Below, one piece after another: positions 9,219 through 18,168 of a DNA stretch of 20,532 nucleotides (position 1 is the first letter of the stretch; each line of letters begins with the position of its first letter). The notes beneath the pieces are model-generated. The model was not told where the DNA came from, did not search any database, and worked only from the letters and a program-made list of their open reading frames with translations. Source of the stretch: a virus; the IMG/VR virus record IMGVR_UViG_3300031873_000707, positions 1 to 20,532 of that record. One strand, 5' to 3'. The translations under genes were made by a program, and so were the position numbers.

Positions 9219-10505
9219 ATGGGCACCAACGCAAGCATCTCCGCTCTCGATGCGGCGATGAAGGTGATCTACCATCAGTACCGCGACCTGACCTACAAAG
9301 ACCGCCCGTTCCTGGGGACCCTGCCGAAGAAGAAGGTCGTCGGCAAACGCAACGACTACCCGATCAAGTACGGCAACGGAACGACTGGCGCCGCGTTGTT
9401 CTCGGCGGCTCAGACGAACTACGCGCCGCCGAAGTACGAGGCCTGGGAGAGCACCCCCGCCCAGGACTACGCGATCGGCCGGATCGAAGGCAAGGCAGTT
9501 CGCGCCGGAGTCGCCGGGGGCATGGTCGAGGGCCTGGCAGACTCGGTCAGGGCTTGCGCGGATGCGATCCTCGCTCACCTGTCGGACTCGATCTCGATCC
9601 GCTGCTTCCGCCCCGCGAGCGGCTGGCGTGCTCAGATCCTGAGCGTCGACGCGACCGCCAACACGATCACCTTGGTGAATCCGTCCGAAAGCGCCTGCTT
9701 CGAAGTCGGGATGGTTTGTGTCGCTGGGGCCGGTGGTGGCTCGAAGAACTCAGGGTCGGCCATGACGACCATACGGGCCGACTTCTATGCGTCCGGGACC
9801 AACACGGCAGTCATTACAGGCGTCAATCGGAACACCGGGGTGCTCACGTTCAACGACATCTACGCCTCTACGACCGTCGTGCCCTATGATTACCTCGCCC
9901 GCTCGGGAGATCAGTATGCGAGCGCCAACCTCTGCATGTCGGGTCTCTTGGAGTGGTGCCCGGCGTCTGCGCCCTCGTCCGCGGCATTCTTCGGGGTCGA
10001 TCGGACTGCCGACTCGATGCTCGGTGGAACCCGCATCGACGCCTCGGCCTATGGCTCGATCGAGGAGGCGATCATCGACGGTTGCTCCCTCGCCGGAGAG
10101 ATGGGCGGAGCGCCCAAGAACGTCGTGATGGGCTGGCGCAAGTGGACCGCGTTCATCAAAGAGATCGGCTCGAAGACGAGCTACGAGCGCGTCCAGCTGC
10201 AGGCAATCAACGCGGCAGGGAAAGCCATCGCCGATATCGGCTACAAGGCTGTTGCTGTTCACACCAACACCGGCGACGTCAACGTGTTCGCGGATCGCCA
10301 CTGCCCGCACGACTACTGCTGGGCCTACGATCCGGCCGACTTCGTTCTCGAGAGCCTCGGGGACCTGGTCGGGTTCGACACCTTCGACAACGGGTCGACC
10401 TGGAAGCAAAGGTCCGACGCGGACGCCTTCGAGGCTCGCGGCCTGAGCTACCCGCAGCTCGTGAACATCGCCCCAGGGAACGGCTGCATCATCACCCTGC
10501 CCTAA
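9219..10505 (+). CDS. Major capsid protein (HK97 fold)
   Basis: A 428-residue protein after the scaffold gene, with an AAGGGAG ribosome binding site. The N-terminal part (ALDAAMKVIYHQYRDLTYKD, then PFLGTLPKKKVVGKRNDYPI) matches the N-arm and E-loop region of podovirus-type HK97-fold capsid proteins. Residues about 135-235 look like an inserted beta domain (QILSVDATANTITLVNPSES, later GVNRNTGVLTFNDIYA and DYLARSGDQY). The C-terminal half has P-domain and A-domain features (AIIDGCSLAGEMGGAPKNVV, MGWRKWTAFI, and the closing YPQLVNIAPGNGCIITLP). It is rich in cysteine, including DRHCPHDYCW. The gene ends with a double stop TAATAA. It forms the icosahedral shell with the scaffold and portal. Confidence 0.92.
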   Translation: MGTNASISALDAAMKVIYHQYRDLTYKDRPFLGTLPKKKVVGKRNDYPIKYGNGTTGAALFSAAQTNYAPPKYEAWESTPAQDYAIGRIEGKAVRAGVAGGMVEGLADSVRACADAILAHLSDSISIRCFRPASGWRAQILSVDATANTITLVNPSESACFEVGMVCVAGAGGGSKNSGSAMTTIRADFYASGTNTAVITGVNRNTGVLTFNDIYASTTVVPYDYLARSGDQYASANLCMSGLLEWCPASAPSSAAFFGVDRTADSMLGGTRIDASAYGSIEEAIIDGCSLAGEMGGAPKNVVMGWRKWTAFIKEIGSKTSYERVQLQAINAAGKAIADIGYKAVAVHTNTGDVNVFADRHCPHDYCWAYDPADFVLESLGDLVGFDTFDNGSTWKQRSDADAFEARGLSYPQLVNIAPGNGCIITLP

Positions 10506-10524: not shown

Positions 10525-11196
10525 ATGCCACCGATCCTCAGAGGCACGGTCAAGACCCGAGACCCTGGACTGAGGGTCGTCGCAGGATCCTTTGTTCCTG
10601 GAGTCTCAAGCGGTCTCTCAACCTACATCCTGACGCTTGCCAGCGGGACCCCGGCGAACCGCCTGGTCATCACGGCCAAGGCGCCATTCGTCGGGGCTGC
10701 TGGCGACGCGCTCACTTTCGACACAGAAGAGGGCGGCGCTCTCTCGGCTGTCTACGCGGCTCCGAAAACAACTCTGACTTACGTCGCGGCGTCAACCACG
10801 TTGGCGCAGGCGGTCACCGCGATCAATGCGATCAGCGGCGGCGCGGTGACCGCTTCGGCGATTGGAACCGGCACGACCACTTTCACGTTAACGAGCGACC
10901 TGATCACCCCCACCGCTCTCAGTGGAGGCGGGACGCAAAAGGGCAGAGGCTTCAGCGTGGCCCAGACCGCGGCCGGGACCTACCGCGTGACCCTTGACGA
11001 CATTCTGCAGGCCGTCCATCTGGTCAACGTCTCGGTTCAGACGGCAGTCGCGAAGGATCTGAGGGCGCAGGTCGGCCCCATCGTCCAGGCTTCGAAGTAC
11101 TTCGATATTTTCACGTTGGCCGGTTCAACGCTCACAGACGGAGCCTCGACGGACCGGATCAGCTTCATCGTTACGGGCCGGGCGATCACCCGGTAG
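10525..11196 (+). CDS. Beta-rich virion protein with inserted domain, paralogue A
   Basis: A 223-residue protein directly after the capsid gene (ATG with TTGAGG upstream). The backbone reads VVAGSFVPG, later KGRGFSVAQTAAGTYRVTLD, RAQVGPIVQ and DRISFIVTGR. The next gene has the same elements in the same order. A stretch of about 110 residues (approximately 28-138) rich in Ala, Thr and Gly interrupts the backbone. It runs from ANRLVITAKAPFVGAAGDAL to TLAQAVTAINAISGGAV and ends TALSGG, resembling a domain that recurs in phage structural proteins. A probable capsid decoration or head-fibre protein, judged by position; the exact role is unknown. Confidence 0.78.
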   Translation: MPPILRGTVKTRDPGLRVVAGSFVPGVSSGLSTYILTLASGTPANRLVITAKAPFVGAAGDALTFDTEEGGALSAVYAAPKTTLTYVAASTTLAQAVTAINAISGGAVTASAIGTGTTTFTLTSDLITPTALSGGGTQKGRGFSVAQTAAGTYRVTLDDILQAVHLVNVSVQTAVAKDLRAQVGPIVQASKYFDIFTLAGSTLTDGASTDRISFIVTGRAITR

Positions 11197-11208: not shown

Positions 11209-12066
11209 ATGAGTATCGGACAGACCTACGATACACACGCGCTGGAAGCTGGTCTCGTCTTCGTCTATGGCTCTTTTGCTCCGAATGGGACCAGTGCAAT
11301 CGACGCGACAAGTATCCGCGGGAAAGGGTTTTCGGTCGAGAGAGTCGGGGTTGGGATGTACCTCCTGACCTTCGACAAATATCCAGGGTTCCGCGCTTTC
11401 ACGGCGTCGCTGCAGCTTGCCGCGGCTGCTGACAACTTCATCCAGGTCGGGCCTTACACGAGCGCCGTCTCGAAGGTCGTGAACACCTATACCAACGCGA
11501 CGGAGAAGGTCAACAAGAGCTCTCACGGGCTCCTGGATGGGATGAAGGTGCGGCTGAGCGCGACGGAAGGCGCTCCAGTCGTCTGTACCTTTACCAACGC
11601 GACGGAGAAGGTCAACAAGAGCTCTCACGGCCTGCTCGATGGAGATCGCGTGCGGTTCCGGAACGTAGGCGGCGCTCTGCCTACGGGATTGTCGGACGAG
11701 AAGATCTACTGGGTCGTCAACAAGGGGACGAACGACTTCGAGGTCTCCCTGACCGTGGGCGGCGCCGCCGTGACGATCAGTGACGACGGGACCGGGACGA
11801 ACTACTACTATCCGCAAGCGGCCCTGCCGACCGGTCTCAGCGAAGGACCCTACTACGTGGTCAACAAGGGGACGAACGACTTCGAGGTCTCGCTGACCGC
11901 TGGTGGTGCGGCGGTCACGTTCTCGAGCGATGGCGTCGGGACCCTGACCTACTACGTAGAGCCGGGGACCTTGCTGCTCTACAGCTGGACTTCGGCCCTT
12001 GCTGACATCGCAGCCAACGCGAACAACCGGATCAACTTCTGCGCGGTCTTCGACAGCTTGACCTAA
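11209..12066 (+). CDS. Beta-rich virion protein with HGL/YVVN modules, paralogue B
   Basis: A 285-residue protein with AAGGGA six bases before its ATG. It shares the backbone of the preceding gene: VYGSFAPNG, IRGKGFSVERVGVGMYLLTF, FIQVGPYTSA and, after the insert, LYSWTSALADIAANANNRIN plus FCAVFDSLT. About 150 residues between the QVGP and LYSW segments are built from repeat modules. A first half is NATEKVNKSSHGLLDG, seen twice, and a second half YVVNKGTNDFEVSLT with GGAAVT is also seen twice. The arrangement is first half, first half plus second half, second half. Repeats are near-identical at the DNA level. It is probably on the virion surface as a decoration or fibre protein; the modules may bind glycans or host structures, which is inference. 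Confidence 0.8.
   Translation: MSIGQTYDTHALEAGLVFVYGSFAPNGTSAIDATSIRGKGFSVERVGVGMYLLTFDKYPGFRAFTASLQLAAAADNFIQVGPYTSAVSKVVNTYTNATEKVNKSSHGLLDGMKVRLSATEGAPVVCTFTNATEKVNKSSHGLLDGDRVRFRNVGGALPTGLSDEKIYWVVNKGTNDFEVSLTVGGAAVTISDDGTGTNYYYPQAALPTGLSEGPYYVVNKGTNDFEVSLTAGGAAVTFSSDGVGTLTYYVEPGTLLLYSWTSALADIAANANNRINFCAVFDSLT
11485..11630 (+). repeat. Direct repeat A (44 bp, two copies)
   Basis: Copies at 11485-11528 and 11587-11630 are identical except for one base, offset by 102 bases (34 codons). Each encodes the segment TNATEKVNKSSHG. Synonymous positions are conserved too, which indicates recent duplication or gene conversion rather than selection on the protein. Confidence 0.9.
11716..11891 (+). 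repeat. Direct repeat B (32 bp, two copies)
   Basis: Copies at 11716-11747 and 11860-11891 are identical over 32 bases, offset by 144 bases (48 codons). Each encodes VNKGTNDFEVS. Together with repeat A this shows that halves of one module were duplicated separately inside the gene. Confidence 0.9.
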
Positions 12067-12085: not shown

Positions 12086-12766
12086 ATGTCTGCCAGAATC
12101 ACGCTTACGACTCTGAAGGCGCTCATCAAAGACCAAGCAGACATGGCCAGCTCCACTTTTTTGACCGCCGGCTCGATGGATACGACCCTCACCTACTGGA
12201 TCAACTGCGCCGTCGCGGAGCTCCACGACCTTCTCGTCCAGTCGTTCGAGGACTACTTCGTCAAGAAAACGACCATCGCCCTCTCGGGCGCCGAGACATA
12301 TGTGCTCCCGGAGAACCTGCTTAGGGTCCTCAAGGTCCTCAGAAGCGATGGAGGGACCGTCACCGAGGTCAGGCGGGCTACCTTCTCGGACTTCACGAGC
12401 CTCATGAGTGAGGGCTCCTCTGCGGTCTACACGCCCATGTACCGGATCTCGGGCTCCGAGATCTACATCCTGCCGAGCGACACGACTGGATCGATCATCC
12501 TTTTCTACGTGCCCCAGGCGGTCAACCTGGCTCTGCCGGATGACGAACTCCACTACAACGTCCCTGACGGGTGGGCCGAGTTCGTCGTCGCGGACGTGGT
12601 CGCCCGGGCCCTCGAGAAGGAAGAGTCGGACCCGTCACCGGCACTCAGGCGGAAGGAGATGGCGAGGTCCAGGATCGTCACCATGGCGGCCGGCCGGGAC
12701 TCCTCCGACCCAAAGCGGCAGATCGACAGGAACAGCCAAAGGGACAACCTCTGGACCAGGGGGTGA
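12086..12766 (+). CDS. Head-tail adaptor (portal-adaptor) protein
   Basis: A 226-residue protein with GGGAGGGG before its ATG. The pattern fits the adaptor family found after capsid genes in podovirus-like phages (functional counterparts are T7 gp11 and P22 gp4). It has an N-terminal helical segment with FLTAGSMDTTLTYWINCAVA and ELHDLLVQSFEDYF. A beta region follows with YVLPENLLRVLKVLRSDGG, then YRISGSEIYILPSD and ILFYVPQAVNLALPDDE. It ends in a C-terminal helical, charged tail. It would form a ring below the portal that receives the nozzle protein. The assignment rests on pattern and gene order. Confidence 0.72.
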   Translation: MSARITLTTLKALIKDQADMASSTFLTAGSMDTTLTYWINCAVAELHDLLVQSFEDYFVKKTTIALSGAETYVLPENLLRVLKVLRSDGGTVTEVRRATFSDFTSLMSEGSSAVYTPMYRISGSEIYILPSDTTGSIILFYVPQAVNLALPDDELHYNVPDGWAEFVVADVVARALEKEESDPSPALRRKEMARSRIVTMAAGRDSSDPKRQIDRNSQRDNLWTRG

Positions 12767-13106: not shown

Positions 13107-16100
13107 ATGAGAAAATATCCCAGCACGAAGTCCCGGGATGCACTTTCCGAGCAGATCGTTCGGGTGCCGCTCGGGGGCTCTCTTGATCAGGAGACGGATC
13201 CTCTCCTGGTTCAACCGGGGCAAGTCGCGACGGCCGAGAACATCGTCTATGACAAGACCGGAAGGGTCTCGAAGGACCCGGGCATCCAGAATCTTCCCTA
13301 CAAGTTCCAGTTCGCGAGCGACCTGGGATGGTCATTCGTCAGTGTGAATCTCATTTCAGAATTCAAGGACTCTCTTCTCGTCGCTGGACGAGTGGTAGAC
13401 CAGAGAGGATACAACGACCCCGAGACGCATACGAGACTCTGCCAGTACGAGGAGCTCCATCAGGCCTTCGATCCTTCGAGACTAGGAAGTAACAGTTCTC
13501 GGGACAACACTTGGTCGCCCGTCGGACAGGATAATATATCGTATTCTCAGTCGAACTCAAATATAGCATGGCCAGGGATGGCCATCACTGCATCTTACTG
13601 TTGGTACTCCTGCGTCGGCCCATTGACCAACAGGGTCAGACTCGTGGTTATCGAGAAAGCCACTGAGACCAGATTTCAGACAGACCTCACCCTGACCGGG
13701 GCAGTCAAGACGAGACTTCTGGAAGTTGGCTCGAACGTCATTCTCTTGTGCGCAACAGCCACCAAGCTCTGGGGCATGTATTTCTCGAAGACGGATCCTA
13801 CGACTGCATCTGCCTGGATTGACCTGGGGCTCGTGAGCGTCGGCGGGTGGGGGACACCCGCTTCTCCGCAGGAAGGTTGGGAGTGCTGCGCATACAACAA
13901 CCAGTTGATCATCTCGAGGATAGACAACGCGACAAGCCAGGCTCGGTTTGATCTCTACTCGAGTGAACTTAAGGTCTGGGTAGACTGTACCGGGACCCAG
14001 TCGACGAACAAAATCGGCAAGACAAGCCATGGTCTCTCAGAGGGAGATGAGATCAGCTTCCGGTCAATCACCGGAGGGTCAGGGATAAACACGGGGACGA
14101 GTTATTACGTAGTGAATCCCGGCACAAACGACTTCAAGATCACGCCGAGTTCGTCATGGGAGGCCTGCATCGGGATAGCTTCAACAGACAGAATAAATAA
14201 AAGCACCTACAGTGTACTCAACGATGGTGATATAGTATTTTTCCGCTCACTCGTTGGGGGGTCGGGGGTAAGTGCAGGGACGGCCTACTATGTCATCAAT
14301 CGCAGGGATCTATGGTGGGTGAACTGCACTGGTACAGCTTCCAGCGACCTGATCAACAAAACCAGCCATGGTCTCATCGCGGGAGATGAAGTGGTCTTCA
14401 GAAATCTCATCGGCGGGGCCGGGATAGCTGAACTGAGCAAATACTATGTGGTCAATGCGCTGACCGACACCTTTCAGATCTCTCTGACCCCCGGAGGAGC
14501 TCCCGTAGACTTCACGACTAACATGACGTCTGGGCAATACGCAAAAGGCTCATACATCTACGGAGACTTTCAGATCTCGCTGACTCTCGGTGGGTCTGCC
14601 GTAAACTTCACGACTGACATAAGTTCTGGCGAGTATGTCAAGATCTTGGACTTCACAACAGATATGACGGCTGGCCAGTACTCCAGAGGCGCGGCTCTTG
14701 TCGCAGTCCCAATCAGGACCCTGATCATCGCCGAGACGGTGGTTGATGCCTTCGTCGCAGTCTTTCCTATAGAGTTCTCGCCCTACGATCTCGGAGCATG
14801 CTGGAGGAATGGGAACAACATCAGGTTTGCGAAGCTGGTGAACGATCTGACCGCAGTCAGGACGAGCTATCCTGTTACTCTTTATACGGTCGGAGCAACC
14901 GACATCGTCCACACGATCACCGGCTCGACGGACCTGCAGGACTACTATGCGAACGGCGGCGGCAACACCCAGGACTACTCGGTCAGAATTATCGTCTCTC
15001 GGGAGATGACGGTTGTAACGCCATCGGCCCTGACCGCGCAAGTGAAAGTAATCGACCAGGCAGTGATCAACGTCCCCAGGACGATCTACCTGCCTACTTC
15101 TATATATCACTATATAATCCTGTCGAACGCATCGACCATCAACGGCCGAATGTACCTGATAATCGGGAACGAGCACAGCGGCGCATCTCTGGTGACGACT
15201 GGCCGGAACAAAACCCAGCTGATACCCGTTGCCTGGTTTGCGCCAGAAGAGGTTGCCGCACAAAAGAAGAACCTGAGCCAGATCTATTATGACTCCTCGG
15301 CAGACAAACTATACGCCACCTACAATCGGAACGACTACCAGAACGATTTCTTCGCGACTGGCAAGATCTTCACCATGTCGGCTCACTGCAGGGGACTCCA
15401 GTTAGACAACGGCTACGTGGCAGGGGGAGGATTCATCGCGACCTTTGATGGATGTCCGGTAGATTGCGGATACTGGCATCCACCGGAGATCAAAGAGATC
15501 ACTTCCCCGACTGGAGGGGCACTCTCGGGCGGGACCTACAGTTACCGTGCGACCTACGAGTGGATCGACGGGAATGGCGAGATTCATATCTCGCAGCCCA
15601 GCAGCCCTGTTGACTTGACGGCGACCATGAACGACAAGGGCTATCTCTGGGTTAGACCGATCTCCCTAGGGTCTGAATACCGGAATAACAACGTCAAAAT
15701 AGTTATCTATCGGAACACCCAAACGACTCCGACGATCTACTTCCGGGTCGCGGAGGCGTACAATTCCGTTTACTCGTCGGGGGTCACGATCAGTGACACG
15801 ATGAGCGACATAACAGCCGAGTCGCAGCCGCAGCTCTACACGACAGGCGGTGTTTTCTCGAACACCACGCCACCACCTGCGAGGATTCTATTCAGGCACC
15901 AGGGGCGCATCTGGGCGATCAATGACGACGACAAGAAGGAGATCTGGCCCTCGAAGCCGAAGATCGCCGGGGTTGCTCCAGAGTTCTGCCCTGAGATGAC
16001 CATTCGGATGCCGGAGGATATCTTAGGATTCGGGAGTCAGGGGGACAACCTCTTGGCGTTCGGAAGGAAGAGGATCTACTCAATCCTAGGCGATGGGCCG

Positions 16101-17105
16101 AACTCCATCGGGGTCGGCTCCTGGCCTGAGCCTAGGCCGATTTCCTTCGACACCGGCACCAACAACGAGAAGTCGGTGAAGCAAACCGACTACGGAACAG
16201 TCTTTCAAAACGATCGGGGCATATTCGTAATCGGATCGCAGTCCAACATCCAACTCATCAGCGACGCGGTCACCACCGAACTCGGGACCAAGCAGATCGT
16301 CGCGGTTGTCTCGGAACTCGGGAGACAGGCAGTCAAGATATTCCTCGAGGGGGTGGACTCGAAGGTCCTCATCTACGACTTCAAGCACCAGCGATGGTCA
16401 ATCGCTTCTCTTGGCGCCGGGGTCTCAGTCGGAACCGCCGGGAACTACGGGCTGAACACGGTCCATTTCTCGACGGTCGACAGGAAGCTCAGGAAGACTG
16501 GGACTCTCTATAAGCTGGTCCAAGAGAAGATGACGATGAAGGTCGTCAGCCCCTGGATCAACTTACAAGGCCTTGCGACCTTCAAGCGTCTTTGGTGGAT
16601 AGATATCATCGGAGAATGGAAGGCGCAGCACAATCTAGTCGTCAAGATATCTCAAGACTACGTTTCGACCTATGACCAAACAGTCACGTTTGATTGCTCC
16701 TCGAGCGTCAGTCCATATCTGCTGAGAATCAAGCCGGCTCGGCAGAAGTGCATGGCGATCAAGGTCGAGGTATATGACGACGAGGTCTGGCTTGCCTGTA
16801 CCGGGACCCAGTCGACGAACAAGATCAACAGGGATGCGCACGGGCTCACGGCCGGAGAGACCGTCTCATTCCGCTTGCTTGTGGGCGGCACGGGGCTTAC
16901 CGAGGTGACGACTTATTACGTTGTAAACCCGACCACAAACGACTTTCAAGTCTCTCTGTCGTCGGGCGGGACGGCGGTCAACTTCACGACAGACATGACT
17001 TCAGGCGAGTTCTACAAGAGAGGGAACTCCTGCACTTTGACCGGACTTGAGTTACACTTGGCAACGAAGAACTTTGCCGCGAGAACTTACGGGAAGGACG
17101 GCTAA
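13107..17105 (+). CDS. Tail nozzle/hub protein with repeat modules (1332 aa)
   Basis: The N-terminus (VRVPLGGSLDQETDPLLVQP followed by GQVATAENIVYDKTGRV and DPG) is the signature of podovirus nozzle/hub proteins such as T7 gp12 and P22 gp10, which close the tail below the adaptor. Beta-strand-rich sequence throughout and the closing section (MAIKVEVYD, LTGLELHLATKNFAARTYGK) fit this. At 1332 residues it is far longer than T7 gp12 (about 794). Part of the excess is repeat modules: at about residues 290-530 (C294-TGTQSTN, then three HGL/YYVVN-type modules and several partial ones) and again at about 1230-1308. The ATG follows GAGGGA, which overlaps the stop of the previous gene. An alternative is a fused nozzle plus receptor-binding module, since no separate spike is in the window. 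Confidence 0.82.
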   Translation: MRKYPSTKSRDALSEQIVRVPLGGSLDQETDPLLVQPGQVATAENIVYDKTGRVSKDPGIQNLPYKFQFASDLGWSFVSVNLISEFKDSLLVAGRVVDQRGYNDPETHTRLCQYEELHQAFDPSRLGSNSSRDNTWSPVGQDNISYSQSNSNIAWPGMAITASYCWYSCVGPLTNRVRLVVIEKATETRFQTDLTLTGAVKTRLLEVGSNVILLCATATKLWGMYFSKTDPTTASAWIDLGLVSVGGWGTPASPQEGWECCAYNNQLIISRIDNATSQARFDLYSSELKVWVDCTGTQSTNKIGKTSHGLSEGDEISFRSITGGSGINTGTSYYVVNPGTNDFKITPSSSWEACIGIASTDRINKSTYSVLNDGDIVFFRSLVGGSGVSAGTAYYVINRRDLWWVNCTGTASSDLINKTSHGLIAGDEVVFRNLIGGAGIAELSKYYVVNALTDTFQISLTPGGAPVDFTTNMTSGQYAKGSYIYGDFQISLTLGGSAVNFTTDISSGEYVKILDFTTDMTAGQYSRGAALVAVPIRTLIIAETVVDAFVAVFPIEFSPYDLGACWRNGNNIRFAKLVNDLTAVRTSYPVTLYTVGATDIVHTITGSTDLQDYYANGGGNTQDYSVRIIVSREMTVVTPSALTAQVKVIDQAVINVPRTIYLPTSIYHYIILSNASTINGRMYLIIGNEHSGASLVTTGRNKTQLIPVAWFAPEEVAAQKKNLSQIYYDSSADKLYATYNRNDYQNDFFATGKIFTMSAHCRGLQLDNGYVAGGGFIATFDGCPVDCGYWHPPEIKEITSPTGGALSGGTYSYRATYEWIDGNGEIHISQPSSPVDLTATMNDKGYLWVRPISLGSEYRNNNVKIVIYRNTQTTPTIYFRVAEAYNSVYSSGVTISDTMSDITAESQPQLYTTGGVFSNTTPPPARILFRHQGRIWAINDDDKKEIWPSKPKIAGVAPEFCPEMTIRMPEDILGFGSQGDNLLAFGRKRIYSILGDGPNSIGVGSWPEPRPISFDTGTNNEKSVKQTDYGTVFQNDRGIFVIGSQSNIQLISDAVTTELGTKQIVAVVSELGRQAVKIFLEGVDSKVLIYDFKHQRWSIASLGAGVSVGTAGNYGLNTVHFSTVDRKLRKTGTLYKLVQEKMTMKVVSPWINLQGLATFKRLWWIDIIGEWKAQHNLVVKISQDYVSTYDQTVTFDCSSSVSPYLLRIKPARQKCMAIKVEVYDDEVWLACTGTQSTNKINRDAHGLTAGETVSFRLLVGGTGLTEVTTYYVVNPTTNDFQVSLSSGGTAVNFTTDMTSGEFYKRGNSCTLTGLELHLATKNFAARTYGKDG
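13985..14700 (+). repeat. Block of HGL/YYVVN/FTTDMTSG repeat modules in nozzle gene
   Basis: Encodes tandem versions of one module. A first half has TGTQSTNKIGKTSHGLSEGD-type sequence. A centre reads SYYVVNPGTNDF. A second half has GGxxVxFTTDMTSGxY-type sequence. Three first halves begin near 13985, 14165 and 14327. Complete or partial second halves appear near 14485, 14565 and 14650, the last two cut short. The middle module has lost the HGL core (STYSVLNDGD) and its second half. This patchwork suggests repeated unequal exchange within the gene. Confidence 0.82.
16796..17026 (+). repeat. Distal copy of the nozzle repeat module
   Basis: A complete module near the C-terminus of the nozzle gene. 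Its first 27 bases (16796-16822) are identical to 13985-14011, about 2.8 kb upstream and in the same frame. It then encodes AHGLTAGETVSF, TTYYVVNPTTNDFQVS and VNFTTDMTSGEF. It is the cleanest single example of the module in the gene. Confidence 0.85.
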
Positions 17106-17106
17106 A

Positions 17107-18168
17107 ATGGGCGAACCTATCGGCGGAGTGCCCAGGGACCCCAACCCTAGGCCGGGAATGAGGGAAGGACCGTGGCGCGGCGAGAACGACCCGCCGCCGC
17201 CGCCTCGAGAGGTATCTGACGAAGAATACCAGCGGTTGATGCGGGAGGAGTTCAGAAACAGTGCAATTGGAAAGAAATTCAGGGGAGAACTCGGCAAAGT
17301 AGGTGGGTTTCCTAATCAAGTATTCGACGAGGGACAGTTTGCCATAGACGAGGCGAGACGGATCCAGGAGGAAACCGACAAGCGGACCCGTGAACTCGAG
17401 ACGCAGCTCTGGAGCCAGGCAAGAGGGGAAGAGACTCCATCGCAGAAACAATTCGCAGAGCAACTACAGCAAACCCAACGCCTACAAAAGGGAATGGTAG
17501 GGTCGGTCCGAGGGCTCTCGGGCGAAAGGGCCAGGCGTTACGGCCAAGATTTCGGATCCAGACTCGAGACAGAAGGCAGGCCTCGTCTCGCATCTATTCG
17601 CGCTACCGAGATGCAAGACGCAGAAGAGGCTCTCACTAGGTTCCAAGGCCAACGAGACGCGCTGGCCTTGCAGTATCTCCAAATGGCGTATTCCGCAGAG
17701 GATGCCAAAAGAATGGCAGACCTGGAATACCAAAATATGATTCAAGCCTTCCGCGATCAGAAGTTGGCTGAATACAAGCAAAGAATAGACAGAGAAATGG
17801 GAATTTTCGGAGGCATCACTGGGGCGGTAGGCAGGATCGCCGCCATGTTCAGCGATAAAAATACCAAGCAAAACGTAAGTGGCGTGAAATCGGGAGAAGT
17901 GAACGACTTCCTTGGCGCGCTAAAAGGCTACACATACGAGTACAAAGACGAGTTCAAGAAGCACCCGCAGGCCAACGACTCAAAGAACACTGGGATCATG
18001 GCACAGGACCTCGAAAAAAGTTCAATCGGAAGGACAATAATCAAAGAGGTTGACGTAAACGGCAGGAAGATAAAAGCAGTCGATAACGGGCGGTTCGTAC
18101 ACGCTCTAGCCGCCGCCGTAGCCGACATGAACAATAGGCTGAATAAGCTGAAGCGAGCAGGAGCCTAA
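17107..18168 (+). CDS. Helical virion protein with C-terminal S74 chaperone domain
   Basis: A 353-residue protein; ATG at 17107 with GGAAGGA upstream. The N-terminus is Pro/Gly-rich (residues 1-35), and residues about 40-235 are charged, Gln/Glu/Arg-rich helices likely to form coiled coils. A short Gly/Ala/Ile segment (IFGGITGAVGRIAAMF) leads into a C-terminal domain that begins SDKNTKQNV at S249. It continues NDFLGALKGYTYEYKD, GIMAQDLEK, and a final helix AAAVADMNNRLNKLKR. This is the intramolecular chaperone of endosialidase type (peptidase S74), with the Ser and the Lys five residues later preserved. Family knowledge predicts self-cleavage before S249, releasing about 105 residues after trimerisation. 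It could be an internal/ejection protein or a fibre-like protein; the helical body favours the former. Confidence 0.82.
   Translation: MGEPIGGVPRDPNPRPGMREGPWRGENDPPPPPREVSDEEYQRLMREEFRNSAIGKKFRGELGKVGGFPNQVFDEGQFAIDEARRIQEETDKRTRELETQLWSQARGEETPSQKQFAEQLQQTQRLQKGMVGSVRGLSGERARRYGQDFGSRLETEGRPRLASIRATEMQDAEEALTRFQGQRDALALQYLQMAYSAEDAKRMADLEYQNMIQAFRDQKLAEYKQRIDREMGIFGGITGAVGRIAAMFSDKNTKQNVSGVKSGEVNDFLGALKGYTYEYKDEFKKHPQANDSKNTGIMAQDLEKSSIGRTIIKEVDVNGRKIKAVDNGRFVHALAAAVADMNNRLNKLKRAGA

Follow-up and report, generated by a model that had tools for sequence, protein, structure and literature searches.

The window, meaning the whole stretch of 20,532 nucleotides that was analysed (positions 1 to 20,532 of IMG/VR virus record IMGVR_UViG_3300031873_000707), comes from a virus. 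Terminase, portal-like, capsid and adaptor genes were recognised in this 20.5-kb window by profile matches. The genes considered here are listed below.

9219–10505, + strand: probable major capsid gene, without the module described below (context; SU10_MCP E 0.0019, below the cut-off).
11209–12066, + strand: small virion protein, 285 amino acids, one module lying within another that is split (profile matches); paralogue of the gene at 10525.
12086–12766, + strand: SU10-type adaptor gene (context; Pfam SU10_adaptor, E 1.7e-13).
13107–17105, + strand: large virion protein at the tail / nozzle position, 1332 amino acids, with four modules (open reading frame; located after the SU10_adaptor gene; module matches).

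The initial annotation called the product of the 13107 gene a nozzle. The sequence of the protein gives this label no support, as profile scans found no match to Phage_nozzle (PF25675) or phrog_376, and the hhalign probability against module-free phrog_376 proteins (the cores of L019 and L067) is 0.2. It is gene order alone, with the tail gene coming after the SU10-type adaptor gene, that suggests a nozzle. The AlphaFold model of residues 1–1200 has a mean pLDDT of 39, too poor for recognizing a nozzle fold or for placing the modules, and only its M3 part (see below) is usable. No phage record matching the whole tail protein was found. Searches of viral contigs found one relative of the window phage, the sister contig L003, which is also the only close one, with a tail-gene core 76% identical to that of the window.

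The module is about 78 residues long, and there are four copies in the tail gene and two more in the 11209 gene. The search profile was built from complete modules, and h numbers refer to positions in this profile. In the tail protein the profile is matched over h1–57 (residues 293–349), h1–48 (353–401), its full length (406–482), h52–77 (489–514) and again its full length (1230–1307), where the residue numbers run from the preceding stop and are two higher than in the count from the ATG. The modules and their parts are as follows.

11479–11571, + strand: outer split module of the 11209 gene, N-terminal part (profile match).
11578–11817, + strand: inner complete module of the 11209 gene (profile match; pLDDT about 95).
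11821–11955, + strand: outer split module of the 11209 gene, C-terminal part (profile match).
13977–14156, + strand: M1, outermost split module, N-terminal part, residues 291–350, profile about 1–57 (profile match).
14157–14312, + strand: M2, middle split module, N-terminal part, residues 351–402, profile about 1–48 (profile match).
14313–14549, + strand: M3, innermost and complete, residues 403–481 (profile match; AlphaFold pLDDT about 97; FCCH fold, Z 8.9).
14562–14645, + strand: M2, C-terminal part, residues 486–513, profile about 52–77 (profile match).
14649–14690, + strand: M1, C-terminal end, residues 515–528, DFTTDMTAGQYSRG (14 residues only; placed by eye; alone below HMM detection).
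16788–17024, + strand: M6, complete C-terminal module, residues 1228–1306, orthologous to the C-terminal module of L003 (profile match, tree).

The repeats reported earlier around residues 290–530 and at 1230–1308 are real, as judged from the profile matches and the short C-terminal piece at 515–528. The three or more copies described around 290–530 are one whole and two split modules, arranged concentrically and not in a row. The 11209 gene does hold a related version, as reported. Its protein is matched to the tail protein by blastp at E 1e-20 to 5e-14, and the profile is matched over h2–28, its full length and h36–73, with the outer module broken near h28–36.

The complete modules were modelled well by AlphaFold (pLDDT about 95 for the inner module of 11209 and about 97 for M3), and in these models they are small β-barrels with the FCCH fold. 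The tail protein passes the cut-off of Pfam E1_FCCH (PF16190; E 1.7e-8, 34.8 bits against a cut-off of 29.5), and the 11209 protein reaches 20.7 bits, under the same cut-off. The nearest solved structures of the two complete modelled modules are the first catalytic cysteine half-domain (FCCH) of ubiquitin E1, with Z scores of 8.9 (2.3 Å over 75 residues) and 8.0 (2.7 Å over 75 residues); Z scores near 8 may also reflect common arrangements, and for this module the FCCH sequence profile and the fold agree. A whole-protein Pfam scan of the tail protein found no other E1 domains, and the context is that of a phage virion gene. Membership of the module in E1_FCCH is at the domain level only. In E1, FCCH is a domain inserted within another domain. 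The phage module, in comparison, is located in virion proteins without the E1 context, in several copies, and nested.

The next structures are the endosialidases, capsule-binding tailspikes, of phages phi92 (Z 7.5 and 7.2) and K1F (endoNF, Z 6.6 and 6.3), at 22–26% identity and in a range, Z 6.3–7.5, where common arrangements score too. The module has its phage virion setting, and possibly its fold, in common with this endosialidase β-barrel. On the other hand, it is below the cut-off of the Pfam profile (PF12195; 11.9 against 35 bits), and no sialidase propeller was detected. With regard to the immunoglobulin fold, the best matches of the module are FCCH barrels, with no Ig chain among the matches listed. 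Tail-tube or head-tail chains of T1 and FCWL1 (9l0f_G, 9jlf_E) match the module model at Z 7.6–7.8. Matches to TAL effectors in a PDB profile search were rejected as a repeat artefact, as no single stretch passes alone.

The pieces in the tail gene follow the order N-part, N-part, whole, C-part, C-part, with the middle module broken near h48–52 and the outer module near h57–65. This order would arise if a module entered a loop of another module that was itself inserted in the loop of a third. Judged from the profile matches, the region of residues 291–528 is a triple nest, with a full module predicted within a split second one, and both within a split third. In total, five nesting events with complementary break points were found by profile matches, two in the tail gene and the others in 11209 and in the unrelated phage contigs L019 and L125. 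In the tail-fibre protein L125, the pieces are h1–45, a whole module and h50–78, and the rejoined outer module is 71–75% identical over 77 amino acids to intact modules of other phages. In L019, a tail protein of phrog_376 whose match to Phage_nozzle is weak and below the cut-off, a module of another subfamily is found between h3–31 and h33–77, and the rejoined outer module is 71–73% identical to intact modules.

The same order of pieces, N-N-NC-C-C, could also be produced without nesting, by tandem duplication followed by deletions or by separate duplications of N-terminal and C-terminal halves. Tandem arrays of whole modules do exist (L067, L045 and residues 335–562 of L019), and neither an insertion junction at the DNA level nor a target-site duplication was resolved. 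Against such a history, the fragments are complementary in pairs, at differing break points. Only 4 of 120 possible pairings match as well (P 0.001 for uniform break points), in a test of five events, three of them in one genome, that was chosen after the pattern had been seen. The break points are located between predicted strands, in predicted loops. Moreover, all the fragments above 10 bits are in the four nested proteins, and no robust unpaired fragment was found among 181 module domains at 131 loci, most of these sequences coming from searches seeded with similar modules. Finally, the inner module of L019 is only 36% identical to the outer one and belongs to another subfamily, so a duplication cannot have produced this nest. 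We consider either form of duplication unlikely as the source of the split modules, and nesting is the preferred reading. The models of the outer modules have moderate confidence and none is high; the N-terminal part in 11209 was modelled at pLDDT of about 53–80. Repeats of 8 and nearly 8 nucleotides at the nest junctions, found by eye, were rejected as target-site duplications, one pair being out of frame.

The module is widely distributed. At least 406 relatives were confirmed in viral contigs, among the 600 matches listed for one profile. The carriers include SU10_MCP capsid proteins, phrog_158 major tail proteins, phrog_376 tail or nozzle proteins (L067 and L019), tail collar fibres and tail fibres. 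The SU10-type major capsid proteins with the module are matched by those of Mycobacterium phage Gaia and other phages on either side of it only, and the Gaia protein lacks it. Similarly, some rhizobial prophages have the module in their major tail protein (phrog_158), and a relative from Rhizobium subbaraonis is without it. The module therefore shows the behavior of a promiscuous domain, being present in unrelated virion proteins and variably so. In L070 (4536–5723) and L071 (4455–5657), an SU10-type major capsid protein has taken up a whole FCCH-like module. Its location in a major capsid protein would presumably give hundreds of copies per capsid. L005 and L006 encode near-identical module-bearing tail proteins of 404 amino acids, and the large tail protein that follows carries three modules in one phage but a single module in the other.

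The sister contig differs from the window in its modules. Its homologue of the 11209 gene does not have the module, and neither does the paralogous 10525 gene in either genome. The tail gene of L003 has one module where that of the window has three. In addition, this single module lies after a homologous 30-residue segment and those of the window lie before it (a match score not reached in any of 5000 shuffles). These differences show that modules were recently gained or lost. The C-terminal copy, in comparison, occupies the same position in the two genomes. The genes at 10525–11196 and 11209–12066 are paralogues encoding small virion proteins between the capsid and the adaptor. In the L003 counterpart of this pair (L003:3547–4936), the copy of the 10525 gene has an insertion of its own, of about 113 amino acids and different sequence, and this gene pair thus seems prone to domain insertion.

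The initial annotation explained the repeats as intragenomic copying of a surface domain among tail and head proteins, by which host contact might be diversified. The claim that modules moved between the tail gene and the 11209 gene, in either direction, was examined with a maximum-likelihood tree over 78 columns, of modules gathered by similarity searches. The 27-bp identity between M1 and M6, the grouping of the two 11209 modules as each other's closest relatives (68.9/93) and the single cluster of the sampled tail-gene modules would be consistent with such copying. However, the tree separates the 11209 modules from those of the tail gene. The 11209 pair groups with modules of L068 and L069 (support 88.8/99), for which no Pfam family and no PHROG match was found beyond the module. 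The inner 11209 module is 65–68% identical to these and the outer one 60%, compared to only about 45% for M6. The tail-gene set groups with the modules of L070 and L071 (96.4/100), which are in the major capsid proteins (SU10_MCP, E 5e-84 and 2e-80). Within this set, M6 is paired with the C-terminal copy of the sister phage, and the one other copy that the sister has is paired with M3 (83.7/99). The check proposed earlier, whether modules group by genome rather than by gene, thus finds the modules of each gene closest to those of other phages.

These groupings support separate acquisition, or long divergence, of the two gene sets, as read from the sequences, and we regard transfer between the two genes as very unlikely. 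Duplication within the tail gene is likewise supported by the sequence comparisons. What stands of the initial proposal is a surface-type domain that has spread among virion genes and duplicated within the tail gene, and what is lost is the copying between genes of the genome. Repeated motifs in one phage genome need not imply intragenomic copying, and a natural misreading is corrected here.

The identical block reported 2.8 kb apart is exact, with a spacing of 2811 bp.

13985–14011, + strand: 27-bp block, first copy, in M1; identical to 16796–16822; possible tract of recent exchange between M1 and M6.
16796–16822, + strand: 27-bp block, second copy, in M6; identical to 13985–14011.

The identity has a P value of 0.0015 by codon shuffling, uncorrected. 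M1 and M6 are 67% identical over the N-terminal part, and 8 of the 27 bases are different in the orthologous copy of the sister contig. Because this tract is shared despite these differences, a recent local exchange between M1 and M6 is possible.

Overall, we consider it likely that the FCCH-like module is a promiscuous virion-surface domain that inserts into loops, including those of its own copies, and so becomes nested, and that it probably binds glycans. Whole-module DNA of about 235 bp would enter exposed loops of virion proteins that are unrelated to one another, with the reading frame kept, and loops of resident modules would also accept a new module, giving nests like Russian dolls. 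The ends of the barrel would lie close together, so that a loop could take the insert and the insertion be kept. The inserts consist of the module only (about 78 amino acids), with no nuclease, integrase or splicing gene of their own as in a mobile element, and illegitimate recombination is therefore the presumed route. In the window genome, the tail gene would have acquired the triple nest at residues 291–528 in addition to an old C-terminal copy, and the 11209 gene a double nest with modules of separate origin. More tentatively, a domain-sized DNA cassette may be effectively mobile among phage virion genes, re-entering its own copies and building trees of barrels on capsids and tails. If so, it would be a recurrent way to grow surface decorations with the core of the carrier undisturbed. 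Self-nesting would also make the order of insertion events readable, mark loops that tolerate whole domains, and show how phages stack surface domains on their particles.

By analogy with K1F, this promiscuous decoration domain of virions probably binds glycans. K1F has three binding sites for polysialic acid, among them the β-barrel, which is also a hotspot for telling hosts apart (PMC12632334). The phage copies would face outward and bind weakly and multivalently to glycans of the host surface, as the similar barrel does in K1F. A less favored but credible alternative is that the modules have a structural role, spacing or stabilising the particle, and no direct one in host binding. The many kinds of virion protein that carry the module fit this possibility, as does its presence in E1, where the fold need not bind glycan. 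The C-terminal module has also diverged no further than the remainder of the tail protein, with 80% identity to that of the sister compared to 76%. On the other hand, the variation in presence indicates that some copies are dispensable, and in K1F a barrel of similar fold does bind glycan (PMC12632334).

That phages carry promiscuous Ig-like domains is well established, and the module would be a second such fold beside them, found in proteins of the capsid, tail tube, nozzle and fibres and in small virion proteins. Ig-like domains have been described in phage virions (Fraser et al. 2006, as cited in PMC10385173), including tail tubes (PMC8718954). Like the module, they turn up repeatedly in capsid, tail-tube and fibre proteins that are unrelated to one another, and relatives differ in them. 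The module differs in that its best matches are FCCH barrels and not Ig sandwiches, and in also entering loops of its own kind. The described mosaicism of phage protein fragments (PMC10684548) resembles the case of the module, in that domains of receptor-binding and tail proteins have been shuffled recently. A term search found neither 'FCCH' nor 'inserted' in the text of that paper, and self-nesting is apparently not reported there. Searches of the open-access literature found no relevant paper on FCCH or PF16190 with phage, or on nested domain insertion in phages.

Downstream of the tail gene, the protein encoded by 17047–18168 has a C-terminal Peptidase_S74 chaperone domain (E 2.2e-7). Its counterpart in the sister contig (L003:9401–10243, 280 amino acids) has a glycine-rich end, and the Peptidase_S74 domain is apparently absent. 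The gene in the window has a TTG start at 17047 and shares 17047–17105 with the last part of the tail gene, in another frame, and the same arrangement is found in L003 (9401–9459).
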